A stretch of DNA of 64,000 nucleotides. It comes from Branchiostoma floridae (Eukaryota; Chordata; Leptocardii; Amphioxiformes; Branchiostomatidae). Of this stretch, positions 36,695-59,016 are shown one piece after another. Each line of letters starts with the position of its first letter. The stretch's first letter is position 1. Position numbers and translations under genes: made by a program. The stretch covers positions 9,572,311-9,636,310 of the forward strand of contig NC_049992.1 in the NCBI RefSeq assembly GCF_000003815.2, read 5' to 3'. The notes under the pieces are model-generated. The model saw nothing but the letters and a program-made list of their open reading frames with translations. It had not been told where the DNA came from and made no database searches.

Positions 36695-38309
36695 GAAGCC
36701 ATTTACATAGGCCACTTGATTGCACCATGAGCAACAATTTACATTTGATACATCATTGGTTAGTCTGAATCTTTAAAGCTTTACGACTCTAGTGTTCTAC
36801 ACAAACCATAACGATGCATGTGATAAGTCAATGTTTTTCCTTTTTTCATCCTATTCATTCATCTAAGAAATACATTTCTAGTATCACCTGTCAGCGGTTT
36901 TATAGAAGCCCGGGGGACCCCAACATAGAATTACATTATAATAGCAGAAGATAACTGAAACATAACATCAAATGATCAATTTAAATAAAAATAAGTAACA
37001 GTGGACATCGCATATCAATGTGAAATAAAATGACTCAATCTTGATATGAAACCGTATATAGATCAAACATGACTAACAAACACAAAAGTCAAATTATGTT
37101 TGACGCTAATTTCTACATGCATTTTACTTACAATGATATTTAACAATTTTAGCTTCATGTACTGTAGTAATGTAAATCTTACCACTATCACACCCATATC
37201 ACTCTCACAGTCTCTTTGGCGGTGAATCAAATGTCTACACAAGATTATAACATCAGTATAAAATTCAGTATGAATGTCGTCCCTCTGTGTTTTCGACACA
37301 AGTTGAGTTCCATTTCTTCCATCTTGAAAGCTGGCCTTTTTTCTGGAAATTAGTGGTTCAATTTAATACCACACTGATTTGATTGTATGGACGACATAAT
37401 CTGAAGACCCCCAAACTAGTGCGCTAGGGCGAAAAAAATTAAACCACAGGACTTAACATCCAGCCCATTCTTTCCCAGGCTTGGTTATCTTATGTTCACC
37501 TTCAGTAAGATTGTAAGAGACCATCGTCGCCATTGTAATAATTTCCTTTGGAGAACAGGCGAAAATCAATGCGCACGCGGATGTCATTCATAAAATTACG
37601 TCAGGGTGACCTAACTTACATTTACCTTTTGTCCGGCCATCAAAATATGACATGCAAGATGTTAACATACATACTGCATTCACAGTCAGACAGGTTCGCA
37701 AATCTCTGTAAAGTTCATTTTTAAGGATGTCGTTGGTTCTCTATAATTTTGCTACATTTTACAGATGTAATGAAGCCGCATGTCGCACTTCCTGTCATCC
37801 CACCTGCCAAATTCGCCCTGTTGAAAATACCAACACAACAAAGGTCATATACTCATTGGCAAGTTATCATATTTCAACCATATCACAGGTATGGGTTGAA
37901 TGTCTTGCTTTTCATTATGATTCTTCTTCTCCCCCCCCCCCCCCCTCCTCTTCCTGTAACATCTTCAAATTGATACATCTGAAATTTGACACAAGGGTAA
38001 TAAAGCCAATATCCCGGGCGTTTTCTTTTTTTACGTATCTGCCTTTAAATGATTTTATTGACATTTTTGGACATTTCTATCCCAAGAGTGTATATTTTGA
38101 CCATCTGAACGCTGATATTACAATCACATGACCTGAAATGTAGTATAGGGATGCATTAGATATTTATTCAAAGAATCCATATTTAATTTTTGCCAAAATA
38201 CAATTCAAATTGATTTCTTTGTCTTTTGGGGGGTTTGGTGCACTGGAAGAATCCATAATTGCAGTCTTTTAAATTCATTTTAGACTAGGGTTCCTTTTTT
38301 AGATGAAGT

Positions 38310-39104: not shown

Positions 39105-39271
39105 CGTCACGACACAGATCTCTATAAAATGCCGATCAGGCTCGTTAGGTTGACTCGGATCCCAGTTTGTGTACACAGCACTTGACCCATCTGCCCACCT
39201 CGATGCTATATTCGGACGTGTACGAAGCCCAATCCAGAATAATTGCCAGGTTTTCCAACTTGTGGATAAAC
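39105..39271 (-). CDS. C-type lectin domain 2, middle exon
   Basis: 167 bases, phase 1 to 0: [30 protein letters not shown] and EICVVT. It carries FWIGL and QPN. The final strand with the last two cysteines must be in a later exon, which was not recognised below 39105. Confidence 0.8.
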
Positions 39272-40865
39272 CTGTTGATCATAAGAAAAACGTCCGATTA
39301 TCTGGCAAGCAATCATCACACATGTTGTAATGATACATTGTCTTATAACTCGGGTTACGTAACATTACATGGCGAGTCTTGTGTTCCGTTATCGCTGGCC
39401 AATCATCAACCACATCCTTTAGTTTTGAAATCAGTCAAATACTGCAATAATACAAACATTTCGTGACCGAAATCAAAGAGTATAGTTGAAATTTCCGGAC
39501 CTTTCTATAAACTATAAGTCTTTTTATTGATATTCACCTAAACTAGACTCATTGTGATCATTAAGGTCTTTCTAATCTAATTCTAAGTGGCATAGAATAG
39601 TATCAAAGCTGGCAAAGCAGTGTAGCCGACCAAGGAGTATCACCAGCCACCGCGAATCTGCCATCACTGAAACATAGGAGCATTTCTATTCAATAATGGC
39701 GTTGCTGCCCCTCCCTGTGGCCATATAAACAGATATACAATGGTTGGTGAGACTCCTTGGTAGGCTACACTCCTTTGCCAGCTTTGATACTATCTTCTGT
39801 CACCGGTACATCTGTCTGGAGATTAAGGTCTTTCAAGATAGCCTTCTTTTGAAAATCAGTTGGTAATATAATAGGCGACAAAATAACCGGTGATGTCCTG
39901 ATCAGGGCTAGGGACACTTCGAAAACCAGGTCCCGGTTGTCACCTGTTTGAGGGAACGAAAAGTAAATGTGTATATCCGGGGATGTACACAAATCATTCT
40001 CATTCCTATTTTCACGTTTGGTGTGTATCCTGTCTTTCATATCATGCTTGTCGTTCCTGCAAACTGAAAAGCCGGGCGCCGGGTTGGAAATACGCCCTGG
40101 CATAATGAATGGGCTAGAACGATTATCAAAACTGTCCGGATTGTTTCTGCTTCGTTTAATGATATGAAACCCACTACGACATCTTGAAAATGTTTGGTAA
40201 ATGCATCAACTTTATCGTTAACGCGTTACTATCAGTCAAAAAACACTCATCACTATTGATGATGATAAGGAGCTCTTTATTGCCCACCATTCGAGATGAG
40301 ACTGGTAATGAAGTTGTTCTCGTCAGCGTCTTTGATGGAGGCAAGATCTGCACCATGACGTTCACATAGTGACCTTGCTCTAGGCCAGTCAACGGGAGAT
40401 CCCCGGCCCAGCCAGTAGCAGTGCTGTTTGTATTTGGACCATCCTTGCTTACAACGTACACGTGGAGCTGTAACAAACGATAGTGCAAGCGTTAATATCA
40501 AGATGCATGCATAACGTTAACGTGACGCCATGGAATCCTGGGATTGTTCGTTCCTTGACAAAGACTGGTGTGGTTAACTCCGGATGACCAGACTCCTTAG
40601 AGGCGGCGCGCGGCGGACTTGCTACCGATCCCTCGCCGCACGCCCCACTATACAGCTGGCCACCACTATCAGCTTACCTCAGCTCAGCTCACGGACCCTA
40701 GACCTAACTGTAACAAGTTTATAGTAGGTGCTAGCTGGATAGTGGGGCGGGTGTAAAGTTCAACGCAGGCGTGCGGTGGAGGATCGGTAGCAAGTCCTCC
40801 GTGCCTCGACTCTAAGGAGTCTGGTTACCCAAATTAAGGGGGGGGGGCTGTTCCGTCGACCACAT

Positions 40866-40936
<71 letters not shown>

Positions 40937-43900
40937 CAGTACTAGTGCACTATAATGTCCAGAACAAGATATAACGTTACGTTCTGCTGCATTACCGCTG
41001 AAAGCAGCTATAAAGTCTTTTTCTCTATTAGAAATATCATTAAACTTAGCTTTGTCTGACAGCAAAAATTTTCCCATCAAAAATGCCATTCTTAAGCCCA
41101 AAGAGACACATTTAAATGCTGTTAACGAATTTTTTTTTTTGCCATAGGCCTAGGCCTATGACTTAGTTCAACACAGATAGTGTTTTTTTTCCTAGAATAT
41201 GTTTTACCGGATAATGGACCAATGACCTTTTACTGGGCAGACAAAGTACGTCTCCCAGCCATGGCAGTTATTATATAGACTTCCTTGCAGTCTTCGGAAC
41301 GGGGCTGGGTTTTTTTTGGGGGGGGGGCGTTGGTCCGCGACTTTCAACGTTAGCTATGTTCTCTTATGCCGGGAAAGGGAGTTTGGCGAGGAAGGGAGTT
41401 TGCTGTGGAACGGAGATTGCCATGATAGTGAGCCTTTGCCCCATCCCTTGCAGTCTTCGGAACGGGGCTGTTTTTTTGGGGGGGGGGGGGGGGGGCTAGC
41501 TCTAAATGTTATGAAGTAGATTTCTAGCGAGGTCAACGCCCATGAAGCCGATTCTTTCAAATGCAGAGTAACCAATTAACGCCAGACCGGTGGCACGCGA
41601 GGGCCAGGGAGGAATGTTTCCCACCTATTGTCCGTCGATTACTAGCTGTTAAATACCGTCAATACATAGCAAAGGGCATCTTTGTGAGGGTTCCTTTAGT
41701 TTGCAGCATGTATTTTTATGAGCTGGTCCCTTTGAATGCTGGTTATATAGAATAGAAGGACGGACTGAATAATCAACAAACAACACGACTTGAGTGCATA
41801 AATTTGACAAACAAAAGTCACAACTTTTGGGGGTGACAACATTTTTGGGGAGTGACAAGAAGCGAAACATTTCAGTTACAAAAGTACGACCGTATAGTGA
41901 TAAAAAGTAAAATATTCAACAAAGAAAACTTGTTTAAAAAGTTTAAAAAATTGCACCACGTCAGGTTCGAACTCTGGTCCAAAAGTTACAAATCCAATCA
42001 CTAGTCAACTACGTCACGAAGCCTTGAGGTTCAAGTTGACGAAAAAATTGAACTAAAGTGACAAAGCGCGTAATAAAAGAGACAGAAATAAACAGTAGGG
42101 CCGTCATTTCAAATAGTTTAATGGCACGAAAACTCGCTACAGTCCCGTCATCTTTTGATCACCAAAGTAAACTTTTAAAACTGATATATAGAGTTGTTTG
42201 TGAGCAAGTAAAGCTCCCGCACGGTGCAAAATGACGAACAATAATGCCTGCTTGATTTGAGTTCACGGCATTTGCATGATAAGCAAGGGTGCGAAAAGCT
42301 CACAGTTATCGCCCAATGTCAGTGACCTGCCAACAGCTATTTGATTGGTCCTCGCTAGAAACTACTGAATGTCAAATAGTCTACACGGGGGGGGCGGGGG
42401 GCTTAGTCCGCGATTTTCAACGTTGGCTATACATCTCTTGTGCCGTGATAGCGAGTCTTTGACCCGTCCGACGCGGACCAACAAACACAATGCACAAACA
42501 CAACATGAGAAAATGAAGACCTGTTACTAATTTGTAATGATAACATTCAAACAGAATGACCACACCAGAAAGATCATAATTTGAAGATTGTTCAAAAAGT
42601 ATTTTTGCCGTATATATGATTCAGTTTAACACGGCTATATGTTTTTGTTTCTACAATATGTTTTATCGAAGAATGGTTCAGGACTACAATGACTTATAGT
42701 GCAGAGTAGTCAAAGTACGTATCCCAGCCATGACATTTATCATCTCATTTACAGTATTCTGACATGGAGATTTCACGTCATTCGGTATCTACACGATTTA
42801 CCGGAGTCTGACCTGTAATCTGATAAACCTCGATGGCCATATGTCCACCTTTGCCGTCCCGTGTACAGCCAGTTGTACGCCGGCGCTTCATGTACTTGTT
42901 ATGTCCATCAGCAGACCCAACACACGCGCCACCATACGTCACACCAAACACGGTAAAACCGCGAGAAAGTGCAACCTGGTAACACTTTTCGATGCCGTTT
43001 TGACGGTAAAAAAAGTGGCCATCAAGGCGTGGATCTGCCCCCTCGAGTGACGGCAAGAGTTTGTCGTAAGTGTCTTGCCAGCAACCCAGGCTGGTGTATC
43101 CATCGCCTCCTGTATGGGAAAGAGGGTATACAGTATTTCACGTGTTCTAGTTGGTTGCCAAGACCATATACCTGATCCCTACCAATATACGTTATTGACA
43201 CATTTTACAGAATAAGTCTATGACTTTGGTGTGATAATTGAAAGGGCAGCAAGATCAAACAATAATAACACAGATTAGATAAGAAATAAATGTTTACGAC
43301 TTCAGTCGCGGGCTTAATGTGAAAAGGCAATCTCCCAAATAGCGCACCAATTTATAATGTACCCAATTTATCATTGACGTAAAATTGGCTTACTATAACG
43401 ATGATGCCAAGACGCCCTACTCATTCCTCACTTATACCTTTGTTGTTGTGGTTGATGCACTGTTTACTATCAAAGATTACTAGTAAATTTTTTTCAAATT
43501 GATAGCGAAATAAGTTCTAAGTCGATGGTTTGAAATAACGTTTACGCAGTTTTCAATGCCTTAAAAGAATTAGCCGATTTCTATGCGTAAAAGTCATAAC
43601 TTTATATTACCTTTGTCGCAGTCCTCTCCTGGACCTGTAAAGCAATATGTACAACAACTTAAAGGAAGAAAACAGCTGAAACGTAGATTCAAAACCGTTG
43701 AAAATACTGAAAGCGATTTTTGTCACAGTTATCATTCATCTTTTATTCCAGACTGTGTGTTTATAAAGAATGAAAACATTACCTATTTGGCAGACAAAGG
43801 ACGCTTCCCCATATTGCCCGTCACAGTACTGATCATCCCACTGATGGCCTCTAGCTGCCCATAGATGAGCGCAGTTCTGGTAAGGTTGTTGTTTGTTCGG

Positions 43901-46900
43901 TTCTCCCGGAGCCCATTTTCTGAAGCTGCAGTCATCCAGTGGTGTTCCGTCTAACCACATCCATTTGTTTCCATTCTAGTTTAGGGAAGAGAGCCAAGCA
44001 AAATCAATTACGTCAAGACACATTTCAAACCTCATATCTTTTCCGCCACTGTAAAGCTGGTTTTGTCAGGTGTGTTTTGGTTAAAAAAAAGCTCGAGGTC
44101 AACATTTTAACGAGCTACAGCCAGAAAATTGTCATGATCACACCAGGATTTCACCCCGTCCTGATGGATCAGCCCGATCAGTGACGTCAAATTAAGATGT
44201 CACATATAATATAAATTTATAAAGTATATATATACTTGACTTAAGCTCATAGTTAGATAGATAGATTCATACTAGATAGATAGAACTTAGGTAGATACTT
44301 ACGGCCAAATTGTTCATCCCAAACCAGTAATCTCTTCTTGGATCAGCCCTCCGAATTAAAGTAAGGAGAAACTTGTACACAGCCTCCGTCTTAATCACTG
44401 CAAGTAGACCGCGATTCTGCGCACATGTCTGCTGGGCCGCTGTGTACGACTTCCTCTCCAGAAATACCTTGTACCTGGTGGAACCTTTACGTGCCCAATC
44501 ATAGGGATCTGCCGCATGGAAACACATTACCACAAACATTCTAGAAATTCTAGAAAAACATTGAAACATACAGTAATATAGCTTAGGATATATCAGAATT
44601 CTTTACACAAGCAGATATAAAAATATAGATATATATAGATATAGATAGATGAGAATAAGAATAGTCTCTTCATAATGTAAATTTAATGTCTAGAAATCGC
44701 CCCAAACCCCCGTCCGTTGAACTTCAGGGGAAGACGAAAGAATTGTTGGTCGAGCAGAAAAACGATGTTTTTGCGTGACTTCTTTTCAGCTACAGGAAGA
44801 CCGAGGTACTTTATTTCTTGAACTGTGAACTGTCACTATTCAACCGCTATAATTTCATCATCGCAAAAATTTAACACTCTTTTGCCCTCTCCCACTGACC
44901 CGAAACTACAGTAATTTCATACTAGTACCGTACTTTAAAGACACTTTCATTCTTGATTACAATTCGCATGCAATATGCTAATGATTCACACATTAACAAA
45001 GAAGGCATTGTTGTTATTCAAGAAAGAAAATGGACATCGTGTTGTATTTTTCTACAGATGCAACACGTTATGTGACCCTAAACTTTGGTTATGATTTGAA
45101 GTTTCCCTGCTTATTTACCCATTGCAAAACAAGGGCAGTTACTGTGGCACTTAATAGGCAAGTTACGACAAACTCACCCCGGTTACAGTTCTGTCCAGGC
45201 CACCCTTGCCTACAGGTGCACTTGTATCCGCCATCTTTGTTCCCACAGTCTCCATGTAGGCAGGATTCAGCGTTGCAGTCAGTGGCGACTGTTAAATCAC
45301 AGGTATTATTAAGGTTATGCAATTTAGTAACTGGGTTATTTAAAATGAAGGACATTCAAAGAGACATTTAATGATAACAAAGGACAACGCAACCGGTTTG
45401 ATATCTTTGATGCTGCTTGAAAATGATTAACCTTGTTGGCAGTTCTGCCCATGTCCATCCAGGCGAGGAGGTACATACGAAACTTAAAAAAATCAAAACA
45501 GAATGTTTAAGTTTACTGAAAAAAGAGAGGGAAACATAATGCAGGTAAACACTTATAGCGAAACTCACCTTTTTGACAGTTCTGTCCCCTCCATCCACGT
45601 GAGCAGGTACATTTGTATCCGCCATCTTGGTTCACACAGCGTCCACGTTGACATGGTTTTCTAGCACACTCGTCTATATCTGTGTGGTAAAGGAAAGGAA
45701 CTATGAACCCAACTTAGTTAATTAACTTTCAGGCAGAAGATTGCACCTAAATATGAATATGCTTGTGAAACATGAAGGGATTTGTAATGCAAATAAGAAA
45801 ACAGAAAATACGATTTTCTGATAGAAAATTGCAACCTTCAAACAGAATTATTACACCAGAAGGAGCTACCTTGCTGACAGTTCTGTCCAGTCCATCCAGT
45901 TAAGCAGGTACATTTGTATCCACCATTTTTGTTCACGCAGCGTCCATGTTGACAGGGGTTTCCGACACACTCATTTATGTCTGTGTGATAACGTTAGCAG
46001 AAAGAGCTTTCATACCGATATCATACTACGAAACAGTTTGGATAAGATACAGGACTTTTATAACAAAGAGAAGTAACGAATCTAAAGAAAATTATTGTAA
46101 AACAGAAGGAACTCACCTTGCTGACAGTCTTGTCCAGTCCATCCGAGCGAGCAGATACAGCGGTATCCGCCATCTTGGTTCACACAGTGTCCATGTTGAC
46201 ATGGTTTTCTGGTACATTCATTTATGTCTGTGTGATAACGGAAAAAATGTACTTACTTCAAAGAACGTTTGCAACGATGATACAACGTAAAAGCTTGGAT
46301 AAGATATATATTTTGTGAAACAAAGAGAAATAAGAAATGGAAGAGATTTGTTTTACAACTGAATGATAAGTTACCGTGCTGACAGTTCTTTCCAGTCCAT
46401 CCCGGTGAGCAGGTGCATTTATACCCGCCATTTTGGTTCACACAGCGTCCATGTTGACAGGGGTTCCTGGCACATTCATCTATATCTGTGTGATAAAGGA
46501 ATGGAACTATGAACCTATCTTAATTAATCAACTTTCAGAACATTGCACCTAAATATGAAACAAAGAGATTTGCAATGCAAAGAAGAAAACAGAAAATATT
46601 ATTTTCTGATAGAAAATTGTAACCTTTAAACAGAATGACCACACCTGAAGGAACTCACCTTGCTGACAGTTCTGTCCAGTCCATCCACGTGTACAGGTAC
46701 ATGATACCCGCCACTTTGGTTCCAGCGTTCATGTTGACAGGGGTTTCTGGTACACTCATTAATGTCCGTGTGATAACAGAAAGAGCTATCATACCGATAT
46801 CATTCTACGTAAAGGCTTGGATAAGATACAGGGATTTTGTAAGAAAATTGTTTCACATCAGAAAGAACTCACCTTGTTGACAGTTCTGTCCAGTCCATCC

Positions 46901-48445
46901 ACGTCTACAGGTACATTTGTATTCGCCATCTTGGTTCACACAGCGTCCATTTCGACATGAGTTTCTGACACATCCATCTATATCTGTTTGATAAAGGCAT
47001 AAAACACTCATTGATGTCTGTGTGATAACAGAAAGAGTTATATCATACATATATCATATTACGAAGAAGCTTGGATAAGATACAGAACTTTTGAAATAAA
47101 GAGAAGTAACGAATCTAAAGAAAATTAACACATGAATATCTATATAGATTACAAGAGAAAATTAACATTAACACATATACCTGTCATATACAAATCATAG
47201 CAACTTAGGAATAACCGATACATAATATCATTTTACGATATCATCATCATCCGGGCGTGCTGGTTGCACGGATGGCCATGACTCTCTTCCTCCATCCTTC
47301 CCTATCCTCTATAGCTTTGGGCAGTTCTTCAGCCGAGCAGCCAGCATCTTCACAAATTTTACGATATAAGTAAATCAAAAAATGTAATTACCTTCGCCAG
47401 AAGGTTGTGTTTTGAGCTTTTTTTTTTTTTTTTTTCTTTATTGAAATACGTGTAAAAATACAAATAAACGGACGAGGACAAAGTGACGGCGGACTCAAGT
47501 TACATTCTACTTATATTAACGCCGCCACTTATACAAGAATTGAAAATAATAAATTATACAGGACAATAATAAATAGATAATTACATATGTATGAACAGTG
47601 AGCGTGAGTCGATCTCCCTTACTGGAGTAGAAAACTAAAACAAAGAATTATACTTGAATCTAAAAACGGTTTGTTGTTGCAATGTACATATGTGTTGCTT
47701 CTATAATTCTGCAATTGACATTGAAGGAGCAGAAAGAACTACCTTGTAAGATCAACATTTCTTTGGCATTATTTGCAAGACTGTGGAAATCAAGTATATG
47801 TACAAGTAACCCAGAGAGTTTGCCGATGAGAACTGAGCGCTGGTAATTATAGATAGGGCAGTGCAAAAGGTAGTGTGAAATCGTTTCGTATGGACACCCG
47901 CAGCTGCAGGCTGGGCTTGACACAAGACCCCGCGTGAAAAGACTATAATTCAAGCTGCAGGTGCCCATACGAAGTCGTGAAATGAGAATGCAAGAGTGTC
48001 GAGACCCGAAGCTAAAATGGCTGAATTTGGGAGGGCGTATCGTTTTAAAAAGATGTTCTCGAAATTTCGAGAAATCGAGTGTACGAAGAGTTAAGTCCAA
48101 GTTGTTCCAAGCAGTGATGGAATAAGGAGTAAAGGACTTTCCAAAGCGGTCAGTCGAAAATCTAATAGGTCTCAAGTTTCTGCTGTTTCTCAAATCATAA
48201 TTACATATAATTGCATAAGGAAGTAAAGTGGTAAGGTATTCACGAGTCAGTCCGTTAACAATATTGTGAAATAGTAATAGGCGGTGAATATGACGCCTGT
48301 CGGACAATGACTCCCAGCCGAGTTCTTTGCGAGTGGCAGAATATGATGACCCTTTTATTGCACCGGTCACAATGAGGGAACAGTGATACTGAATTCTTTC
48401 GACGAGATTTGATTCCTCAATTGTGCACCCGTGCTTGAGCTTGTT

Positions 48446-48512
<67 letters not shown>

Positions 48513-51500
48513 CAACAGCATAACTCAAGAAGCCTTAGATGGATCCTGATGATATTTGGTAGGTGGGTAGGGGTCGGCAAAACGAAGGTCAAGTTCGATA
48601 ATGGGCCCCCTAGCGGCTTGCTAATGTACTGCAGCAGAACATCTATTTTTGATACCTCGTGTTTTGGACATGCTGTGGTGGTGATTTTTGAGTGGTAGAT
48701 AGCCCTTGGGGCAGAGAAGAAGTGCTGTGAGTTTGAACCCCCTTTTTTGAAACTGCATGCGCCGATTTCCTTTCAAACTTGTTTAATTATGCATATCAAC
48801 AGCTAATTTGCATAATCAATGAGGAAATTTTATAAATCCACTGCATTTCATGATAGGACTTTCAAACTTGTCACATATATAGCTGAGAAAGAGTGAAATG
48901 TCAATAACGTTACATATTAATTATACAAATGACGACCTCATTTGCAGAACGAATGAGAAAATATGAACGTGTTGACGGATCGTCATGATTTTTGGTATGT
49001 AGATAGCCTAAGTGAAGCCTTACGTAACGAAATAAATACTAATAATGTGATAGTAATTATGCAAATTAATAGCTAATTTGCACAATTCATGAGGAAAGTT
49101 TATAAATCCACTGCATTCCATGATAGGACTTTCAAACTTGTCACATATGTATAAAACTGAGAAAGGGAGAAATGTCAATACATATTAATTATGCAAATGA
49201 CGACCTCATTTGCATGATTAATGAGAAAATATGAACGTGTTGACGGATCGTCATGATTTTTGGTATGTAGATACCTTAAGTGAAGCCTTACGTAACGAAA
49301 TAAATACTAATAATGCAAATAAACAGCTAATTTTAGTAATTAATGAGGAAATTTTATAAATCTACTGCATTCCATGATAGGACTTTCAAACTTGTCACAT
49401 ATGTAACTGAGAAAGAGAGAAATGTCAATACATATTAATTATGCAGATTATCACCTCATTTGCATAGTTATTGAGAAATGCTATAATTCCATACTGGTAA
49501 ATGATAGGAATTTCATACTTACATCATTATGGAGCTTAGTGAAGGTGAACATGCCCGGTGGAATTATGAGAGTTGATGGTAGCTTTCCACGGACCAATTT
49601 AGCGCATCTTGGTTAACTTGGTAGGTGTATATGAGCACTTACCATTTACCAAATACCCTATGTTTCTTTTGGACAAGCAACGATGCATATTTTCTGTCAA
49701 ATATAAAATTTTGTAGAAAAAAATAGAGAAGCAGCTTCATAGCTGTTTGTGTATCACTGTCATGCGTTGAACAAAGCATATTGTCAGTGTCAAAAGCAGT
49801 AGATATTTACCGTCGCATGTGTAATTGACTTCCAGGTACTTGAAGGTTTTACGACAAGGATCTACTGTGCGTTCGGCCCTGATAGAGCAGCTGGACTTCC
49901 CCTGGCAGCTGGCCCTGACCCAAGTCGTGCTGTCGGGGCTGCGGCAGTCGGTGGTAAGGATTGAACTGTGGGGACAAACCTCAGGGCCTCTGGTCCGGCC
50001 GTACAGGGCAGACACGATGTTAATATTTTTTCCAGCAGGACAGCTGATGGTCAATGTTTGGCCCTCACAAGCTCGAACGGGCCCCAAGGTTCCTGCAACA
50101 TATAATTATAACCGTGAGTGTCCTCCTTTGCAGACTAGCTCCAGATACTTTCTTCTTGATGAAGATACAATCGGACTACTCCGAGCGACAGACTTTGTAC
50201 AATCCTAATGATATTTGGTAGGTAGGTAGGGGTCGGCAAAACGAAGGTTAAGTTCGATAATGGGCCCACTACCAGCTTGATAAGGAACTGTAGCGGAACT
50301 TTAAGACGGAACTTTAATTTTTGATATCTCGTGTTCTGGACATGCTGTGGTAGTGACTTTTAAGTGGCAGATAGCCACTGGATGTTTCTGATAATGAAAT
50401 TCTTTTTTTTTTACTATCAACAGGATACTCCTGTCATGTAGATATTTTTTCTGCGGGTTCCGAGACAATATCTAGCTTGTCTTGGTAATTGAAGAGGGGT
50501 ATGAAGGGTATATACATAAGTACAAACTTGATGTAGTTATGACCCCTTCCTAAAAATAAGGACATTAAATGTTATACTTGTGACGGAACAGCATCTAAAA
50601 ACATTGTAACAGCCACACAGTTTTAGAAAACAGGTACACATAAGGAATTCCCTGAGGATTGTAACCACAGAGATAGCAATCTTCTTTGGTTACAAACCGT
50701 CAGCTAGTCTGGACTAACTAGCTCTTGAGTGATGTCTACCTCTTTCTCTTGTTACCAACTTTCTGCAGTGGTTTTTCTGTAATGTGACTGCCCCTAGGCC
50801 TTCCTTTTTTGACTGGTACACTATGTTTGTCTTTCTGTGTTAGAAGAAAATGTGTGTTTTTCCATAAAACTCAAGGAAATGTGATGAATTGTGCAAAGTC
50901 TACCTATATACAACTTATCAAGTGCTCCATCTGGACAACACCTGTGGGTGACTGTCCAGTTATCTAGGACAAATGCCTAGGGGAGCTTGCATGACCCAAA
51001 TTCCTGCCATTAAAATTCCTACGGACTAACTTCTCACATTGCAAACATGCCTGTGGAACACGTGTGGCTGACTGTCCAGTTATCTAGGACAAATGCCCGG
51101 GGGCGCTTGCATGACCCAAATTCCTGCCATTAAAATTCCTCCGGACTAACTTCTCACATTGCAAACATGCCTGTGGACTGGCATTCCTGTGGAAAAATGC
51201 CTGTGCAATTCCTAGAATTTTTGCAGACTGAACACAATAATATATCATTTGGCTCGCCCCTGAGGCGTCGCCAATAAACAAAGCAACCACGGCCACCTCC
51301 TCGCGTCCACCACAATTTACAGCGTAGGACGAAGATGTATGGGTATTTATTATTCTATGAAAAATGGATCAATTATTTTCTATCTACTTAGAACTAAAGA
51401 TCAAATCAAGTTTTCATATTTACAATGCCAAAAAATGACCATGCATATAGACCGGTACAGTCCATGGAGAAGGACAGTTACATTTATATCAACCATCTTG

Positions 51501-54500
51501 GTTCACACATTGCCCTTATTAAAGCATGATTATAGTTTACTGGCACACTCATCAATGTCTGTGTGAGGATGGGAAAATCATAATTTTGAATAACACATGT
51601 GTAACATTGAACGTCAAGTCGGTCACTTCATGAGAATAACTCACCCTGTTGACAGTTCTGTCCAGTCCATCCTTTCATACAGGTGCATTTGTATCCGCCA
51701 TCTTGGTTCGAACAACTACCAAGAAATTTGTTCTACAACAGAAAAAACTCACCATCCTGACAGTTCTGTCCAGTCCATCGGGTACACACATCTATGTCTG
51801 TGTGATAAAGGTGTGGAATGATATTTATCTAACTTATTCATCATTCAAGCCGATGATAACATCTCAATACTTTAATAAAATGAAGACCTAGTACCTGCTC
51901 TTAATTTGTAGTGCCAAGTTTCAAACTGAATGGCCACACCAGAAAGAGCTCAACTTGCTTGACAGTTTTGTCCAGTCCATACAAGTGAGCAAAACATTTC
52001 TATCCACCATCTTTGTTCCCACAGCGTCCATGTTTCCAACACACTCATTGATGTCTGCGTGATAACAGAAAGAGCTATTATACCGATATCAATACTACGT
52101 AAAGGCTTGGATAAGATACAGGGATTTTGTAAGAAACTCACCATCCTGACAGTTTTGTCCAGTCCGTCCGGGTGAGCAGGTACATTTGTATCCGCCATCT
52201 TTGTTCACACAGCGTCCATTTCGGCATGGGTTTCTGGCACACTCATCTATGTCTGTTTGATAAAGGTATGAAACAATATGTATCTAACTGAATATACTCA
52301 ATAACAACTACACCCAAATGAAAACAAAGAGCTGTTCTTAATTTGTAATAAAAAGACGGAAACAGAAAAGTATGATTTTTTAATAGAAATTGGCAACTTT
52401 CAAACAGACTGATTTCTTCGAAAAGAGTTCACCTTGCTGACAGTTCTGTCCAGTCCATCCAGGTGAGCAGGTACATTTGTATCCGCCATCTTTGTTCACA
52501 CAGCGTCCATGTTGACAAGGGTTTCCAATACACTCATTTATGTCTGTGTGATAACAGAAAGAGCTATCATAACGATACCATGCTACGTAAAGGCTTGGAT
52601 AATATAAAGGAATTTTGTAAGAAGTTTGTTTTACAACAGAAGGAACTCACCCTGTTGACAGTTCTGTCCAGTCCATCCAGGTGCGCAGGTACATTTGTAT
52701 CCACCATCTTTGTTCACACAGCGTCCATTTTGGCATGGGTTTCTGGCACACTCGTCTATGTCTGTGTGATAAAGGCATGAAACAACATGTACCTAACTGA
52801 ATCTACATCCAACCTGATGATAACCCCTAAATGTAAATAAAGAGCTTTTCTTAATTTGTGATAAAAATAAGAAAACAGAAAAGTATGATTTTTTAAAGAA
52901 AATGGCAACATTCAAACAGATTGATTACATCGATAGGAGTTCACCTTGCTGACAGTTCTTTCCAGTCCATCCGGATGAGCAGGTACATTTGTATCCACCA
53001 TCTTTGTTCACACAGCGTCCATTTTGGCATGGGTTTCTGGCACACTCGTTTATGTCTGTGTGATAAAGGCACGAAACAACATGTACCTAACTGAATCTAC
53101 ATCCAACCTGATGATAACCCCTAAATATAAATAAAGAGCTGTTCTTAATTTGTGATAAAAATAAGGAAACAGAAAAGTATGATTTTTGAATAGAAACTGG
53201 CAACTTTCAAACGGACTAATTTCATCGAAAAGAACTCACCTTGCTGACAGCTCTTTCCAGTCCATCCGGGCGAGCAGGTACATTTGTATTCGCCACCTTG
53301 GTTCACACAGCGTCCATTTGCGCATGGGTTTCTGGTACACTCATTGATGTCTGTGTGATAGCACAAAGAGTTATTTCATACAGATATCATACTACGAAAA
53401 AGCTTGGATAAGATACAGGGTTTTTGTAACAAAGAGAAGTAACGAAACTAAAGAAAATTATTGTACAACAGAAGGAACTCACCTTGCTGACAGTTCTTTC
53501 CAGTCCATCCGGATGAGCAGGTACATTTGTATCCACCATCTTTGTTCTCACAGCGTCCATGTTGACAGGGGTTTCTGGCACACTCATCTATTTCTGTGCG
53601 ATAACGGAGAGGGCTTTTATCCTGGTCATACTGGCAAACGCTTGGGTAAGATACAGGATTTTTGGAACAAAGAGAAGTAACGAATCTAAAGAAAAGTATT
53701 GTACAACAGAAGGAACTCACGTTGCTGACAGTTCTGTCCAGTCCATCCGGGTGAGCAGGTACATTTGTATCCACCATCTTTGTTCACACAGCGTCCATTT
53801 TGGCATGGGTTTCTGGCACACTGGTCTATGTCTATGTGATAAAGGCATGAAACAACATGTACCTAACTGAATCTACACCCAACCCGAAATAACACCTAAA
53901 TGGAAATAAAGAGCTGTTCTTAATTTGTGAGAAAAAGAACAAAACAGAGAAATATGGTTTGAGAAATTGAAGACTTGTTCTTAATTCGCAATGGCAACAT
54001 TCGAGCAGAATGACCACACAAACAAGAACTCACCTTGCTGACAGTTCTGTCCAGTCCATCCAATATATATTTTTTTAAACAAATATATAACGGGGGCCGC
54101 CCTAAGATGCCCCCTGCCCTAAGATGCCCGGATTTTTTTGCTGATCTTATTATGCATAAGTACGCCGTGTTTGTTGCCACTGACTATGATGATTAGAAAG
54201 GTAAATAAACCAAGTCCAAACAAACAGCTTTTTTTTCTATTAGAAATTTTTTTACACATATTCACTTCCCTTTTTTTTTGAAGACAGAATTTTCACAATA
54301 ATGTTGGTAGCGCCGAATCACTGTGGTCACCTGTTACTAGGTATTGGTGGCTCGTGTCCATAAATAAACAACCAGTAAAAAACAGCCACACAACTGTCAT
54401 ACACATAAGAAATAAAGCTTCACAAAACACTACAAATATTGGTCTTCAAATGTTTGTTGAGTAGAAGACCGGCCATAGAAAAAACAACATAAGCATCACC

Positions 54501-57500
54501 GCCGTTGTTTTCCCCAGGGAGCGTGGCCCCGCAGGTGGCAGACGAACGCCCAAAATAATTGTTACTCTAACAAATGATTTCGTACCGTCTATAAAAAATG
54601 AAATTTGTGATGTCGAATATGTTTCCCAATACGTACACAGAGTTTTTTTTTTGTGGTGATTTGGCGTTGTCGTTTTTCGTAATGATTTTGTTAGTCGGGC
54701 CGCCGCATTCAATGCATTTCGCCCATTTCCCATGAAAACACAACCTGGATTGTGAAAGATTTAGCCCTCCCCGCGGGAGACAAGAAGCACACAGAATCAC
54801 AATTCTACTGTTGATAGAAAGCTAATATGTTATAAAATTAGAATTTTTATTTACGTTTGCCTAAATTGTTCACCAGCTTCCGAAGAGAGCAAGTTAGGGC
54901 GCACTGTTTAACGCGGCTCAAAATCGGAATTTATATTCACGATAACGTCCTCGGTGTTTGCCAGTTGTAACGCGGAGGGTGAAGAGTTCATGAACAGTAT
55001 GACTGCCTTCCTTCTTCAAGTATGGTCTCTAGATGAATGTGTTAAAAATTCATTGACCAAAACTTGACCACTCTTTGGCAACTAGTGATGGAGCGCCGTG
55101 AGTTCGAGCGCGTAAAAAGCGGGCATCTTAGGGCGGCCCCCGTTATATTACGTGGTAATCCAGCTGTCATTGTCTCCATGAATACAACGTTATTGGTTTT
55201 GTAGCTATTGCTCAAGCACTCTTAGTTATACTGTTAACTTTCATTACATACCAGTGGTTGACAGATGTGCGAGGGTTGTCAGTAAGATCTCGGTGTCCCC
55301 ACGTTCGGTACTTGTTCCTGGACCTGTCTTCTGCCATCCAAACAGTGAGGAAGATGAGGTTGAGTTGACGACGGCTGAGCTGGTCTTCTTGTAGAAAGGA
55401 GTCCACCAAGAGCTGTTTGAATTCTGTTGGATAACCCAGCTCGTCACGACAGCTTCATTCTTCTACAAACAGGTGCATTTCAAAGATAGATATACATGGA
55501 GAAATAATAGAATTTATCTTTTTTTCACAGCTTATATGTTTAATATCTTCTCCGCTTCCTGTGTCAGAGAGTGATGAATCCTACTGCTGCATGTTTTCAA
55601 TTGGTAATGTCAAAAAAGAACAATTTCTATTTTGCAAAGACCTACCAACCAGTCTCTGACATAAAAAAGATAATACCTGAAACAGAAGATACAGTCGTAC
55701 TAATGCAGAACGTCACTCATTTGTATTATTATTTCTATCTAACAGACTAACTAATCTCGATTTGAAGCCAGAGCCTACAAATTTCAAATACGTTTGCGCT
55801 ACAAGCTGATGCACTGTTATCATGGCCAACGGCAGGGCTTTTGGTATCCATTCTCCAGAACAGCGAGCAGATTATTATTGGACTGAGCAGAGCACTTTGG
55901 ACTAATGTTTGTAGCCTCTTACGTCTTAAACTTACATATCTGATATTTTGTGTTAAACTTCTCTTGTATTCACTGGATCATAATAACCTCCAGCGGGAGT
56001 CTTCACACTTCGTTGAAAGTAAAACAATCTTGAGATTTATACCAAAGATCTTGAGATTTTGTGTTAAATTTTGAGATGTTTTGACTTGACCTTGAGATGT
56101 TTTGATATAATCTTAAGATGTTTAAGAACAATCTGAAGATGCTTCGCAAAAATCTTTGAATGACATTTTGAAAGTTGCGTTGAAAGAGTCCCATGTTTTA
56201 AGATGCATGGAAAAAATCTTGAGATCATTTAAAAGAATCTAGAGACTTTTTGAAAGATCTTCAGATTGTTGTGACAAATCTCAAGACTGTTTCGAAAAAT
56301 CTCAAGATTGTCTAGAAAAATCTCGAGATTGTCTAGAAAAATCTCGAGATTTATCACAAAATCTCGAGATTTAAAAAAAAATTAATGAGGTGTGAAGACC
56401 CACGGTAATTATGATACGCTGTGTAACCCAGGTTTTCTCAAAATTTCAGATGTGTACCTTTATCTATTAGACAACATTAGTCTAAAGTGCTCTGTTAAGC
56501 TCAATGATAATCTGCTCGCTGTTTCAGGCATTGGACATTCCTTACCTTTTGATGGATTGCAACGTGAAATTGCATAACATCGGGATCTGTCCGGGAGGTG
56601 AACCCAGAACCTCTGGATTCTTGATGTGGCCATCTAACCGCCAGGTCAAACAATGTCACTTTTACCTCTACTGGCCTTCCTTTCCATCAGAACATTATGA
56701 ATACCATGGCTTACCCTAGAATACCCTCCAGGTACCAGATGAGTTGATAGCATGCCAGCGGTGACAGCCAATGCTAGTATCAGAAAGCCGAAACCCAATA
56801 CAAGCCAGCAAACCTTACTGGATTTCATCAGGCCCCACAACTCCCCCGCACGATCTAAAATGCAATACAAAACATGATCATAACTCTAATTGTAAACTGT
56901 ATGGTTAAAAGTACCGAAAAAGTACTTAAAACCAGAGTTCATACCACGACCTTACACTTTCGACTAAAACATATCAACCTTGACGATTGATGCAACCATC
57001 GAATTCACACCATTTACCAATATGGTATAATAGCATTTTGTAATAAATGATTCAAATCAAGTAATTCAAATGATTCAAATCAATAATTTGCTTAGATGAT
57101 ATTGATCGATATTCCCTTTCTCATATTCCCTATCTTTGAACAATTTCACCAATTATGCAAATTAGCTTCTGTTTTGCATGATTAGCATCTTGAAGTAGCG
57201 AACTAACTACAAGCCATAATCTAAATTCTAGTAGATTATATGAATGCCAGAAAAATGCAATCGATTTGGTTTAATCATAAGCCCCCTTGTGATGGTGTAG
57301 TGATTTATTGAATATGGACATACCTTTAGCTTTGGCTGCAAAGCTCCGTTCATCCTCTTTTCCATCTCCGGTAGTTTCCTCTGTTTTATAGTACTGCTCG
57401 GAGACTTCCTTCTGCTCTGGCCACACAACCACGTGATCCCCCATGTCAAGATGGCAAGGCGCCGTGTGGGGGGGTGCAGAGGGTTGCAAGCCTGGACCCT

Positions 57501-59016
57501 GCGCATTTTCATCGACATCTTCTAGATCCACGTCTTCGTAGTTACTATCAATTTGTTCGTTCATACCGTCCTCTTGTAGACATTCTTTTTCTTCCTTGGC
57601 TTCTTCGTCATCTTTGGTTTCTTCTGCTTTTGTTTCCTGTTGTTCAGCTTCTGTTCCTTCTTTTTCTTTGGCTTCTCTTTGTTCGGCTTCTTCTTCTTCC
57701 TCTCGGCTTGCTTGTTCCTTTTCTTTCTTCATCATAACAGAATTGCGAGGAGGGAGTTCGGGGGCGACACGTTTTAAGCCAGAGCCCACCTCCACTTTTA
57801 CCCCTCCCACAACTACGTGCATACAAGCCTCTCCTCCTTCCTTTCTGCCTGCTTGTTCCTTTTCATTCTCATCTACGGCAGGATGGCGAGGAGGGAGTTC
57901 AGGGGGCGCTTCATGTTTCAAACCGTGACCCAGCATCACGTTTATTCCGCCCAACTCTAGATCTATGTCCTCGTATTTGTGGACTTCGTGTTCTTCTTGC
58001 TTCCTGCCTGTTCGTTCTTCTTTTTCCTCCTTCATGGCGGAATGACGGTGAGGGTGTTCAGGGGGTGCTGTAGGTTTCAAACCGTAACCGTAACCGTAAC
58101 CGTAACCCAGCATCATATCGATATCCTTTCCACACAACTCTGAATCTATGTCAGGATCCTCATATTTATGGCCCTCGTCTTCTTCTTTCTTTCTGCCTGC
58201 TTGTTTCTTTTCTTTCTCCTCCATGACAGGATGGCGAGGAGGGAGTTCAGGGGGCGCTTCATGTTTCAGACCGTGACCCAGCATCACGTTTATTCTGCCC
58301 AACTCTAGATCTATGTCCTCGTATTTGTGGACATCGTGTTCTTCTTGCTTCCTGCCTGCTCGTTTCTTTACTTTCTTCTCCATGGTGGGATGACGAAGAG
58401 GAAGGTCAGGGGGCGCTGCATGTTTCAAACCAGCGCCCAGAACCACGTTTCCACCTCCATACACTAGATCCACATCCTCGTAGGTATGGTGCTCTTCTTC
58501 CTTCGATATGTTTGCTTGTTCCCTTTCCTTCTCCTTCTCTAGCATAGCAGAATTGCGAGGAGGGAGGTCGGGGGCGACACGTTTTAAGCCAGAGCCCACC
58601 TCCACTCTTACCCCTCCCACATCTACGTGCATACAAGCCTCTCCTCCTTCCTTTCTATCTGCTTGTTCCTTTTCTTTCTGGTCCATGACAGGATGGCGAG
58701 GAGGGAGTACAGGGGGCGCTTCGTGTTTCAAACCGTGACCCAGCATCACATCTATTCCACAATTTCCACCCAACTCTAGATCTATCCCCTCGTAATTATA
58801 GCCAGAGTCGCCCTTTTCTTGCTTTCTGTGAGCTCGTTCTTTTTCTTCCTCCATCATTGTGGAATGACGAGGAGGGAGGATAGGGGGCGCTGCATGTTTC
58901 AAACCCGAGCCCAGAACCACGTTTCTACAGCCATACACTTGATCCACGTCCTCATAATTATGGTCCGCTTGTTCGTACACGCGCTCCGGAGACGGTTCTG
59001 TGTTGTTAAATGCCAT
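39105..59016 (-). CDS. Candidate type II membrane lectin receptor (tail repeats, TM, EGF, SUEL, EGF, CTLD, WSC-like, CTLD)
   Basis: All exons lie on the - strand and most extracellular exons are phase 1-1, so they splice without frame change. Order from the N-terminus: cytoplasmic repeat exon 57324-59016, TM exon near 56725-56854, possible stalk exon 55252-55462, seven intact EGF exons (53831 down to 52142), SUEL domain 49811-50092, six EGF exons (46983 down to 45178), CTLD 44303-44508 plus 43783-43975, micro-exon 43611-43634, WSC-like 42813-43109, and a second CTLD 40288-40467 plus 39105-39271. No signal peptide was seen; the TM near residue 580 would act as a signal anchor, placing the repeats in the cytosol and the lectin domains outside. 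The 3' end of the second CTLD was not found. One gene is an inference: two adjoining genes (tail/TM and EGF/lectin) remain possible. Confidence 0.5.
39573..39835. mobile_element. MITE family A, copy 3
   Basis: Inverted ends share TAGTATCAAAGCTGGCAAAG and GAGTGTAGCC.ACCAAGG. A 12-base direct repeat (TTAAGGTCTTTC) occurs at 39561-39572 and 39833-39844; it may be a target duplication, although TTAAGG also ends copy 1. Confidence 0.75.
40288..40467 (-). CDS. C-type lectin domain 2, first half
   Basis: 180 bases, phase 1-1: [32 protein letters not shown] and [10 protein letters not shown]. It joins directly to the WSC-like exon in phase. The donor G|GTGGGC is somewhat weak. Confidence 0.85.
40587..40833. 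mobile_element. MITE-like element with long inverted ends
   Basis: The ends ACCAGACTCCTTAGAG and CTAAGGAGTCTGGT are inverted, as are GGACTTGCTACCGATCC and GGATCGGTAGCAAGTCC. Arms are about 60 bases. It lies upstream of the second CTLD's first exon. Confidence 0.75.
40869..40934. repeat. CA dinucleotide microsatellite
   Basis: About 33 uninterrupted CA units. Confidence 0.98.
41165..42750. repeat. Duplicated intronic segments with G-runs
   Basis: TTGCAGTCTTCGGAACGGGG is followed by T and G runs at 41286 and again at 41450. TCCGCGA.TTTCAACGTT appears at 41334 and 42410. ATATGTTTTA.CG..GAATGG and AAAGTACGT.TCCCAGCCAT recur near 41200-41265 and 42655-42735. These are local duplications in the intron between the WSC-like and second CTLD exons. 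Confidence 0.6.
42813..43109 (-). CDS. WSC-like Cys-rich domain exon
   Basis: 297 bases, phase 1-1: [53 protein letters not shown] and [13 protein letters not shown]. The LGCW...KC...A...G...FGV..GG.C.GSA layout is the WSC-like module common in lancelet and echinoderm extracellular proteins. It is a putative carbohydrate-binding domain and is spliced between two CTLDs. Confidence 0.8.
43611..43634 (-). CDS. 24-base micro-exon linker
   Basis: The acceptor CTTTACAG, 24 bases in phase 1-1 (PGEDCDK) and donor G|GTAATA link the first CTLD to the WSC-like domain. It adds a single cysteine. Confidence 0.55.
43783..43975 (-). CDS. C-type lectin domain 1, second half
   Basis: 193 bases, phase 0 to 1. 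It encodes [29 protein letters not shown] and QWDDQYCD...SFVCQI. The EPN motif with WDD fits a mannose-type calcium site, although WND is the norm. Confidence 0.9.
44248..44300. repeat. GATA/TAGA microsatellite
   Basis: Short TAGATAGA runs; a second AT/GATA-rich run is at 44617-44652. Confidence 0.7.
44303..44508 (-). CDS. C-type lectin domain 1, first half
   Basis: 206 bases, phase 1 to 0. It encodes [36 protein letters not shown] and YWFGMNNLA: the first CTLD helix with its cysteine and the WIGL-like WFGM strand. The donor is GCC|GTAAGT. Confidence 0.9.
45178..45288 (-). CDS. EGF-like exon 13 (intact, divergent)
   Basis: 111 bases, phase 1-1, but starts [20 protein letters not shown] and lacks the calcium-binding DIDEC start. 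It is the most divergent intact copy and adjoins the lectin exons. Confidence 0.85.
45431..45476 (-). pseudogene. EGF exon remnant (3' half only)
   Basis: GTACCTCCTCGCCTGGATGG then ACATGGGCAGAACTGCCAAC is the end of an EGF exon with a frame-breaking deletion and no first half. The donor-like AAG|GTTAAT remains. Confidence 0.7.
45569..45679 (-). CDS. EGF-like exon 12 (intact)
   Basis: 111 bases, phase 1-1, [15 protein letters not shown] and GWRGQNCQK. Confidence 0.85.
45870..45980 (-). CDS. EGF-like exon 11 (intact)
   Basis: 111 bases, phase 1-1, [15 protein letters not shown]; donor AAG|GTAGCT. Confidence 0.85.
46117..46227 (-). CDS. EGF-like exon 10 (intact)
   Basis: 111 bases, phase 1-1, [15 protein letters not shown] and [12 protein letters not shown]. 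Confidence 0.85.
46375..46485 (-). CDS. EGF-like exon 9 (intact)
   Basis: 111 bases, phase 1-1, [15 protein letters not shown] and GWTGKNCQH; donor G|GTAACT. Confidence 0.85.
46659..46765 (-). pseudogene. EGF exon with lost acceptor and frameshift
   Basis: It aligns to the intact EGF exons over its whole length but carries 2- and 3-base deletions, and the acceptor CACAG has become CACGG. It is unlikely to be spliced in. Confidence 0.8.
46873..46983 (-). CDS. EGF-like exon 8 (intact)
   Basis: 111 bases, phase 1-1, [15 protein letters not shown]. Glu of DIDEC is changed to Gly. Confidence 0.8.
47242..47355 (-). mobile_element. Tiny 5'-truncated retrotransposon end with 12-bp target duplication
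   Basis: The reverse strand encodes [35 protein letters not shown] and a stop at 47247-47249, the typical last residues of a LINE-type polyprotein, followed by a short ATG repeat tail. The exact 12-base repeat ATTTTACGATAT at 47230-47241 and 47356-47367 flanks it. Confidence 0.75.
47420..48434 (-). mobile_element. 5'-truncated non-LTR retrotransposon, reverse-transcriptase C-terminal part
   Basis: A 236-codon frame at 47660-48370 begins [20 protein letters not shown] and contains [35 protein letters not shown] and a Cys/His knuckle ([17 protein letters not shown]). This is the usual C-terminal region after the polymerase in LINE proteins. The reverse strand has AATAAAG and a run of about 20 A at the 3' end. 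TTGAGCTT occurs at 47412-47419 and 48435-48442, a possible target duplication. It is a dead partial copy in the intron between the SUEL and second EGF block. Confidence 0.85.
48451..48511. repeat. GT dinucleotide microsatellite
   Basis: About 30 uninterrupted GT units beside the retrotransposon 5' junction. Confidence 0.98.
48560..48690. repeat. Dispersed repeat, copy 2 of 3
   Basis: Contains GATATTTGGTAGGTGGGTAG, AAACGAAGGTCAAGTTCGAT and TGGACATGCTGTGGTGGTG, shared with 50213-50370 and, more weakly, 2823-2945. Confidence 0.75.
48780..49500. repeat. Tandem array, period about 254-269 bp, nearly three copies
   Basis: GAGGAAATTTTATAAATC recurs near 48820, 49090 and 49345. Each is followed by CATGATAGGACTTTCAAACT, a TTAATTATGCAAATGACGAC block and (in two copies) GTTGACGGATCGTCATGATT. 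Non-coding, AT-rich. Confidence 0.85.
49811..50092 (-). CDS. SUEL-type (galactose/rhamnose-binding) lectin domain exon
   Basis: 282 bases, phase 1-1, between TGTTGCAG and G|GTAAAT. About 94 residues: [20 protein letters not shown], then [30 protein letters not shown] and YLEVNYTC. Cysteine spacing and the CEG...LxISC and YLxVxYxC motifs are diagnostic of the SUEL/Gal_Lectin fold, which binds galactose or rhamnose on extracellular glycans. It sits between the two intact EGF blocks and can be spliced in or out without frame change. Confidence 0.9.
50213..50370. repeat. Dispersed repeat, copy 3 of 3
   Basis: Carries the same ordered blocks as 48560-48690, with an added duplicated GGAACTTTAA. 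It lies just upstream (gene sense) of the SUEL exon. Confidence 0.75.
50939..51178. repeat. Tandem duplication, 120-bp unit, two copies
   Basis: GACTGTCCAGTTATCTAGGA starts at 50950 and again at 51070. The two units are about 95 percent identical by eye. Confidence 0.9.
51462..51567 (-). pseudogene. EGF exon with in-frame stop
   Basis: The acceptor CACACAG and start DIDECAS are kept, but a TAA follows within ten codons and the middle is degraded. Confidence 0.75.
51645..51712 (-). pseudogene. EGF exon, second half only
   Basis: Encodes [10 protein letters not shown]...GWTGQNCQQ with a good donor G|GTGAGT, but the first half is missing and the upstream sequence is unrelated. Confidence 0.75.
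51753..51797 (-). pseudogene. Internally deleted 45-base EGF mini-exon, still in phase
   Basis: The acceptor [22 protein letters not shown] and donor G|GTGAGT are all intact. The middle 66 bases of the EGF exon are gone, leaving 45 bases in phase 1-1. It has only two cysteines and cannot fold as EGF, but it could be spliced without frameshift. Confidence 0.65.
51951..52054 (-). pseudogene. EGF exon with deletions
   Basis: Starts DINECVGN, loses bases in the first loop and shifts frame; the donor has decayed to AAGTTGAG. Confidence 0.75.
52142..52252 (-). CDS. EGF-like exon 7 (intact)
   Basis: 111 bases, phase 1-1, [15 protein letters not shown]. The usual GWTG is GRTG here. Confidence 0.85.
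52433..52543 (-). CDS. EGF-like exon 6 (intact)
   Basis: 111 bases, phase 1-1, [15 protein letters not shown]; donor AAG|GTGAAC. Confidence 0.85.
52651..52761 (-). CDS. EGF-like exon 5 (intact)
   Basis: 111 bases, phase 1-1, [15 protein letters not shown] and [14 protein letters not shown]. Confidence 0.85.
52945..53055 (-). CDS. EGF-like exon 4 (intact)
   Basis: 111 bases, phase 1-1, [15 protein letters not shown] and GWTGKNCQQ. Its surrounding intron is nearly the same as that of exons 1 and 5, showing recent duplication. Confidence 0.85.
53240..53350 (-). CDS. EGF-like exon 3 (intact)
   Basis: 111 bases, phase 1-1, [17 protein letters not shown] and GWTGKSCQQ. Confidence 0.85.
53483..53593 (-). 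CDS. EGF-like exon 2 (intact)
   Basis: 111 bases, phase 1-1, [15 protein letters not shown], six cysteines, calcium-binding-type start. Confidence 0.85.
53721..53831 (-). CDS. EGF-like exon 1 (intact)
   Basis: 111 bases, phase 1-1, DIDQC...[17 protein letters not shown] pattern with six cysteines and GWTGQNC. It uses a TAG acceptor. Confidence 0.85.
54034..54061 (-). pseudogene. EGF exon end, broken near a transposon
   Basis: Only the last 28 bases (GWTGQNCQQ) and donor of an EGF exon remain. About 24 bases of AT-rich sequence separate it from the terminal-inverted-repeat element starting at 54085. The missing part is not present beyond the element. Confidence 0.75.
54085..55148. mobile_element. 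1.06-kb DNA transposon with 28-bp terminal inverted repeats
   Basis: The terminal repeats 54085-54112 and 55121-55148 are exact reverse complements (ATATAACGGGGGCCGCCCTA continuing AGATGCCC). TATA at both borders could be a 4-bp target duplication absorbed into the repeats. The left end has a second GCCCTAAGATGCCC just inside. The interior has no recognisable transposase; short reverse frames carry scattered CxxC motifs only. It is probably a non-autonomous element; superfamily not assigned. Confidence 0.85.
55252..55462 (-). CDS. Possible stalk exon, reading frame uncertain
   Basis: With the strong acceptor CTGTTTGTAG and donor ACTG|GTATGT the exon is phase 0 to 1, matching the EGF exons downstream. 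It would encode a Ser/Thr-rich segment with NSS and NST glycosylation sites. A second frame, using a weaker acceptor (GAATGAAG, exon from 55450), reads [20 protein letters not shown] and onward to a stop at 55212; that would make a short separate type II protein. Confidence 0.4.
55977..56415. mobile_element. Element with short inverted ends and internal AATCTNGAGATT array
   Basis: The ends ATCATAATAACC...AGTCTTCACACTTCGTT and ATTAATGAGGTGTGAAGACC...TAATTATGAT are roughly inverted and match the inner motif of the hairpin at 5405-5727. Between them is an array of degenerate units of about 21 bases containing AATCTCGAGATT or AATCTTGAGAT, most regular at 56270-56375. Confidence 0.65.
56725..56854 (-). 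CDS. Transmembrane exon
   Basis: The acceptor ATTTTAG and 2-base start fit the previous exon and give [14 protein letters not shown], then a hydrophobic helix ([17 protein letters not shown]) and TAGMLSTHL. Lys and Arg on the N-side against few charges after it fit a type II orientation. Two donors are possible: CTG|GTACCT (exon low end 56736, phase 0) or GAGG|GTATTC (56725, phase 2). Confidence 0.7.
57324..59016 (-). CDS. Cytoplasmic tail exon with eight YED/PxLPPR repeats
   Basis: ATG at 59016 opens 564 codons plus one base to donor AAAG|GTATGT. Eight repeats of about 49-63 residues span roughly residues 20-440. The typical unit is an acidic tyrosine motif (YEDVD, YEDID), then GLKH.APP.LPPRH, then a basic/acidic EKE linker. 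Two repeats (about 128-176 and 398-440) have CMHV in place of the tyrosine motif. A degenerate ninth unit (NYEDVD) follows an E/K-rich stretch near residue 495. PxxPxR segments fit class II SH3 ligands and YEDV/YEDI fit SH2-type sites; this is inference. One unit has an in-frame GYGYGYG expansion. Neighbouring exon B supplies the transmembrane helix. Confidence 0.85.
58081..58107. repeat. Coding hexanucleotide CCGTAA repeat
   Basis: Four tandem CCGTAA units on the + strand encode GYGYGYGYG on the coding strand within repeat 6 of the cytoplasmic tail. Confidence 0.9.

Follow-up and report, generated by a model that had tools for sequence, protein, structure and literature searches.

A single minus-strand gene in the 64,000-nucleotide stretch of Branchiostoma floridae DNA analysed here (the window, C14:9572311-9636310) probably encodes a multivalent, glycan-recognising type II receptor of 1,633 amino acids, in which an exon-shuffled ectodomain is carried by the conserved tail-TM-stalk stem of a lancelet gene family. 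At the N-terminus of the predicted protein, a cytoplasmic tail of some 570 residues would be followed by one TM helix, a Ser/Thr-rich stalk and a long rod of EGF modules, which is broken by a SUEL lectin and bears a CTLD, a WSC-like module and another CTLD at its far tip. The rod may serve to keep the lectin modules off the membrane, allowing them to recognise glycans of microbes or of other cells. Clustering by ligand would then make the multivalent tail accessible, and its YED[V/I] sites, once phosphorylated, could along with its PxLPPR sites serve as docking points for SH2- and SH3-domain adaptors, with uptake or adhesion as the most likely outcome. More tentatively, and at somewhat less than even confidence, we propose that the gene represents an undescribed lancelet type II family that combines a conserved signalling stem (YED/LPPR tail, TM, stalk and EGF rod) with shuffled lectin heads, and that the member in the window, with its SUEL, CTLD and WSC-like heads, would sense glycan combinations via a multivalent adaptor-binding tail.

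The gene model comprises 24 exons that run from the ATG at 59016 to the stop codon at 37752, in phase, with GT-AG borders and without an internal stop (positions refer to the window, and all exons are on the minus strand). The tail exon (57324..59016; 1,693 nt, 564 aa) contains YED[V/I]D and PxLPPR repeats behind its first ATG and ends in phase 1. The TM exon (56715..56854) is entered in phase 1 and left in phase 0, and the Ser/Thr-rich stalk exon (55252..55462; 211 nt, with NSS and NST sequons) bridges phase 0 of the TM exon to phase 1 of EGF1. Next come seven EGF exons (53721..53831, 53483..53593, 53240..53350, 52945..53055, 52651..52761, 52433..52543 and 52142..52252), the SUEL (galactose/rhamnose-binding lectin) exon (49811..50092), and a further six EGF exons (46873..46983, 46375..46485, 46117..46227, 45870..45980, 45569..45679 and 45178..45288). 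CTLD1 is encoded by two exons (44303..44508 and 43783..43975) and is followed by a linker exon of 24 nt (43611..43634), a WSC-like exon (42813..43109) and CTLD2, which is encoded by three exons (40288..40467, 39105..39271 and 37752..37817). Phase 1-1 is common to all 13 EGF exons, each of which is 111 nt long, and to the SUEL, linker and WSC-like exons. The linker is the weakest exon of the model.

This arrangement bears out the original prediction, which had placed tail repeats, a hydrophobic helix, 13 EGF exons and SUEL, CTLD, WSC-like and CTLD exons on one strand in compatible phases, and the three junctions that it singled out for checking (57324-56854, 55252-53831 and 52142-50092) are all phase-compatible in the joined frame. 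The gene does not end at 39105, as was then assumed, because a further exon (37817-37752), which ends in HYICKM and the stop codon, completes CTLD2. A truncated CTLD2 was rejected on the same grounds, and so was a separate CTLD2 gene with its own signal peptide: the hydrophobic frame from 40516 lacks an ATG and resembles a polypyrimidine tract. Since AG directly precedes the ATG both in the window and in the closest copy of the gene, on C3, the tail exon may follow an upstream untranslated exon. Exon phase 1-1 is favoured in lancelets, above all in shuffled exons, according to a published study (PMC4284660), so that phase fit by itself is weak evidence for one gene.

In a Kyte-Doolittle scan of the full 1,633 aa with a 19-aa hydropathy window, the strongest hydrophobic stretch was formed by residues 579-597 (2.48, next best 1.49), and similar hydrophobic exons are present in the paralogues. 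By hydropathy alone, the protein has the layout of a type II C-type lectin receptor, with a single TM helix, no signal peptide and a CTLD as the last module. The N-terminus is expected to lie inside, because the disulphide-rich modules come after the TM. Vertebrate type II C-type lectin receptors (Dectin-1, asialoglycoprotein and NK-type receptors) have an N-terminal cytoplasmic tail, one TM helix and a C-terminal CTLD, all of which are predicted for the window protein as well. However, they have a short tail and one CTLD on a neck, whereas the window protein has a repeat-motif tail of some 570 aa, an EGF rod, SUEL and WSC-like modules and two CTLDs. The proteins of the thrombomodulin/CD93/CD248 group are type I CTLD-EGF proteins with an N-terminal CTLD. 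They likewise combine CTLD and EGF in one membrane protein, but order and topology are reversed in the window protein, in which the TM lies ahead of the ectodomain modules. The type II lectin receptor kind is already known, and what is new here is the unusual tail and the unusually rich ectodomain. No published description of such an architecture or family was found in the open-licence literature, as represented by listings and the openings of abstracts.

Two short motifs are enriched in the window tail. PxxPx[RK] occurs at 8 sites, 6 of them PxLPPR (shuffle mean 0.42), and Y[ED][DGN][VIP] at 7 sites (shuffle mean 0.11), and none of 1000 shuffles reached 8 or 7, respectively; as the motifs sit within internal repeats, the comparison does not address whether they arose independently. 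YED[VI] is presumably similar to ligands of Src-type SH2 domains, and PxxPxR to class II SH3 ligands. A motif scan of the window tail found no ITAM and no NPxY, a single ITIM at chance level (shuffle mean 0.42, with at least one ITIM in 356 of 1000 shuffles) and three Yxx[LI] sites (shuffle mean 1.36, 140 of 1000 shuffles as high), so that the protein does not group with ITAM, hemITAM or ITIM receptors as defined by a canonical tail tyrosine motif. In a Pfam search, the tail-TM-stalk piece had no match above cut-off. The earlier description of the tail as a series of SH2/SH3-type sites is thus retained for the YED[VI] and PxLPPR motifs, which exceed expectation from composition, and we infer binding partners for these motifs only, as putative ones.

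The tail might also be a fast-evolving repeat and not a signalling platform, with the YED and PxLPPR motifs as by-products of repeat expansion. Part of it is indeed made up of a tandem repeat of 159 bp, its length differs between the window (564 aa) and the C3 copy (442 aa), and in several paralogues one or both motifs are missing from the tail. Among 13 paralogue tail ORFs, Y[ED][DN][VI] was found in 10 and PxxPx[RK] in 7; the latter was missing from L031, L033, L038, L040, L046 and L047, and both were missing from L038, L046 and L047 (the ORFs of L046 and L047 are short). Yet the motifs recur in divergent paralogue tails, and dN/dS for the tails of the window and C3 is 0.43 (dN 0.167, dS 0.393). 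We regard repeat expansion without a signalling role as rather unlikely, though it deserves serious consideration. In L047 and at C1:29258773-29267682, several short tail-like open frames lie in series ahead of the TM exon, and the tail repeat of the C1/L047 member may for that reason span separate exons.

The C3 copy, which extends from C3:1909227 downward, has tail, TM and stalk exons in phases 1, 0 and 1 as in the window. Its tail exon occupies C3:1909227-1907901, and its stalk exon has 199 nt, 12 nt fewer than that of the window. Over 532 codons of tail, TM and stalk, dN was 0.161 and dS 0.343. The values for TM (dN 0.129, dS 0.173, dN/dS 0.75) and stalk (dN 0.145, dS 0.224, dN/dS 0.65) come from few sites, and so do those for the two CTLD1 exons, for which no significance is claimed (first exon, dN 0.112 and dS 0.241; second exon, dN 0.194, above dS 0.124). 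Similarity between window and C3 was 0.935 and 0.873 for introns, compared to 0.872 for tail, 0.899 for TM and 0.859 for stalk. With introns as similar as exons, the C3 copy is of rather recent origin, and coding could not be demonstrated from identity alone. EGF and CTLD matches were found at the C3 locus, SUEL or WSC-like matches were not.

Tails of this kind are widespread in the genome (513 Mb in 431 contigs searched). The window tail as query gave 19 matches, its own included, and one natural paralogue tail unit gave 47 matches at E up to 0.01. By merging the 19 window-tail matches with the 35 paralogue-unit matches with E below 0.001, we obtained at least 23 places, window included, 17 of which are on C14. 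The other 12 paralogue-unit matches (E 0.001-0.01, on C3, C8 and C11, at C14:12.83 Mb and in the window) were left out of the merge. Tail-family loci cluster at C14:4.18-4.63 Mb, on both strands.

Order and strand of the modules were analysed for 13 of the 22 other tail places, in up to 12 kb downstream of each tail or in a shorter stretch. On the same strand as the tail, matches were found for the TM exon at 11 of the 13 loci, for EGF at 10 and for CTLD at 8; on the opposite strand within these 12 kb, TM, EGF and CTLD matches were found at none of them. The count for the TM exon includes self-matches, as five of the six TM queries were drawn from those loci; with the window TM as sole query, matches were obtained at C3, C10, C5 and C1 and in L043. 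Two tails (C14:4270960, minus strand, and C14:4259243, plus strand) had no TM, EGF or CTLD match downstream, and for three of the five loci without CTLD the downstream stretch was short (8,444, 8,539 and 6,208 bases). Of the 13 loci scanned, 10 showed a recognisable TM-like exon. It was followed by a phase-0 GT donor candidate in all 10 cases and preceded by a compatible AG candidate within 90 nt in 8, which is weak evidence, GT and AG being short signals. At L037, EGF and CTLD matches are located beyond 12 kb, on the strand opposite to the tail at C14:4.588 Mb, and probably belong to a neighbouring gene.

We assign to a lancelet YED/LPPR-tail family those loci that have a homologous tail and, behind it on its strand, a TM exon, EGF exons and a CTLD. 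The window gene falls within this definition. The order tail, TM, EGF and CTLD is alike at most of the 13 other loci (C3:1.91, C10:1.38 and C14:4.2-6.9 Mb, C158, C5 and C1), whereas the loci vary in how many EGF exons they have and in the type of CTLD. On the strength of this recurring order, tail plus TM as a gene of its own was rejected. Together with the phases of the C3 copy, it also makes one type II receptor gene, as originally predicted, the best reading of the locus, now as the member of a family and not as a one-off.

The ectodomain was said to hold three kinds of glycan-binding module, and Pfam confirms the identity of two of them. The SUEL exon scores 76.8 bits with Pfam SUEL_Lectin (1.8e-21) against a cut-off of 31.4, and CTLD1 and CTLD2 score 62.8 and 67.6 bits with Lectin_C against 22.6 (5.8e-17 over both exons of CTLD1, 2e-18 over the three of CTLD2). 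The translated frame has EPN and WDD motifs in CTLD1 (second exon) and QPN (second exon) and WDD motifs in CTLD2. The WSC-like module, at 23.9 bits (E 4.9e-5), remains below the Pfam WSC cut-off of 27.8, which makes glycan binding by it putative, and against PDB it gave one chance-level match only (E 0.83). The Pfam EGF match (3.2e-17) covers EGF 1 and 2, and the other 11 were identified by their cysteine pattern. Broken EGF exon relics were seen by eye on the minus strand next to intact exons (near 54060, 52050, 51790, 51690, 51550 and 46760), which suggests turnover through duplication and decay. The intron between SUEL and EGF8 harbours an open frame of 283 aa (47663-48511, minus strand; zf-RVT E 0.00055, below cut-off) that is probably a retrotransposon fragment.

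No SUEL or WSC-like match was found in the 13 paralogous stretches, so the inclusion of these two exons is argued from the window locus alone. Either of them (SUEL, 50092-49811, or the WSC-like exon) could be a stranded leftover of shuffling that is not spliced in, in which case the true protein would be a plain tail-TM-EGF-CTLD member of the family. SUEL sits in an intron that holds EGF relics, and relatives of both modules are abundant: we counted 78 SUEL matches genome-wide and at least 150 WSC-like matches (150 scored among 207 candidates), the window copies included in both cases. Against this, each of the two is undamaged, is flanked by splice sites and has phase 1-1, the joined frame remains open, and the best SUEL relative elsewhere in the genome is 69% identical. 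A leftover exon at either position is unlikely on balance, and we keep both exons in the receptor. The window is the only one of the 23 tail places with both SUEL and scored WSC-like matches on the same strand within 40 kb downstream of the tail; this comparison drew on 32 SUEL and 17 WSC-like matches on C1, C3, C5, C10 and C14, with C158 represented in neither list. At C14:5.30 Mb, a SUEL match lies 32 kb from the tail, past the CTLD matches of that locus. Among the scored matches, copies of the WSC-like module (about 95 aa) are up to 65% identical to that of the window.

SUEL and WSC-like matches also lie close together on one strand at C8:5864746-5866664 (with a CTLD match), at C16:15.08-15.22 Mb and at C14:9.78 Mb. 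As CTLD, SUEL and WSC-like modules cluster elsewhere, as in the C8 example, they seem to be part of a pool that lancelets shuffle. The place at C8:5.864-5.867 Mb has these module types in common with the window gene, but no tail match nearby; the tail-unit matches on C8 are weak (E 0.002-0.008) and located at 1.08-1.80 Mb.

The modules could also be divided between two genes or products, a membrane protein of tail, TM, EGF, SUEL and EGF, and a secreted CTLD1-WSC-CTLD2 lectin made from an alternative first exon. The frame ahead of the CTLD1 acceptor (44508-44569, minus strand, ATG near 44569) is open and slightly signal-peptide-like, it is open in the C3 copy as well (MFQCFSKMFVVLAMCFRAA; two indels, multiples of three by eye), and the polypyrimidine tract ahead of the acceptor is weak. 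However, the hydrophobic core of this frame is short, and position -3 would be H or R for cleavage before the first residue of the exon (by eye). Moreover, the end of EGF13 and the start of CTLD1 are both in phase 1, and 7 of the 13 tail loci have EGF and CTLD exons together on one strand downstream of the tail. The order tail, TM, EGF, CTLD in the paralogues speaks against a two-gene split, which we consider improbable. That the locus is a decaying copy, as its EGF relics might suggest, is very improbable, given the intact frame of 1,633 aa across 24 exons.

Lancelets are basal chordates, and their genome is rich in lectin genes, with at least 150 scored CTLD matches among 1,565 first-look candidates. 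We know of no signalling route for most lancelet lectins. Members of a family that couples lectin heads to a tail rich in putative adaptor-docking motifs would be immediate candidates in the search for how such lectins signal, and a natural example of receptors assembled on one stem by exon shuffling. According to the study on exon phases mentioned above, lancelets have the highest rates of exon shuffling and domain combination known in metazoans, and CTL genes are among the receptors with evolutionary patterns resembling those of lancelet TLRs (PMC4284660). Another report describes C-type lectin domains as over-represented in lancelet genes whose presence varies from individual to individual (PMC12373286), so the window gene may vary between animals. 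The window architecture fits both accounts, of shuffling and of presence/absence variation. FrLRR, a Grb2-associated phagocytic receptor of lancelets, is reported to lack a cytoplasmic tail, and an unknown mediator, e.g., a co-receptor, was proposed by the authors of that work (PMC10199209). Speculatively, the tail family could supply this mediator, and it offers testable partners for lancelet Grb2.

A stretch of the window near 31.4 kb reads N. Neighbouring genes on the minus strand, identified by eye, are mitochondrial carrier-like (31.2-34.9 kb), PH-domain-like (16.4-18.2 kb) and GPCR-like (6.9-8.5 kb).
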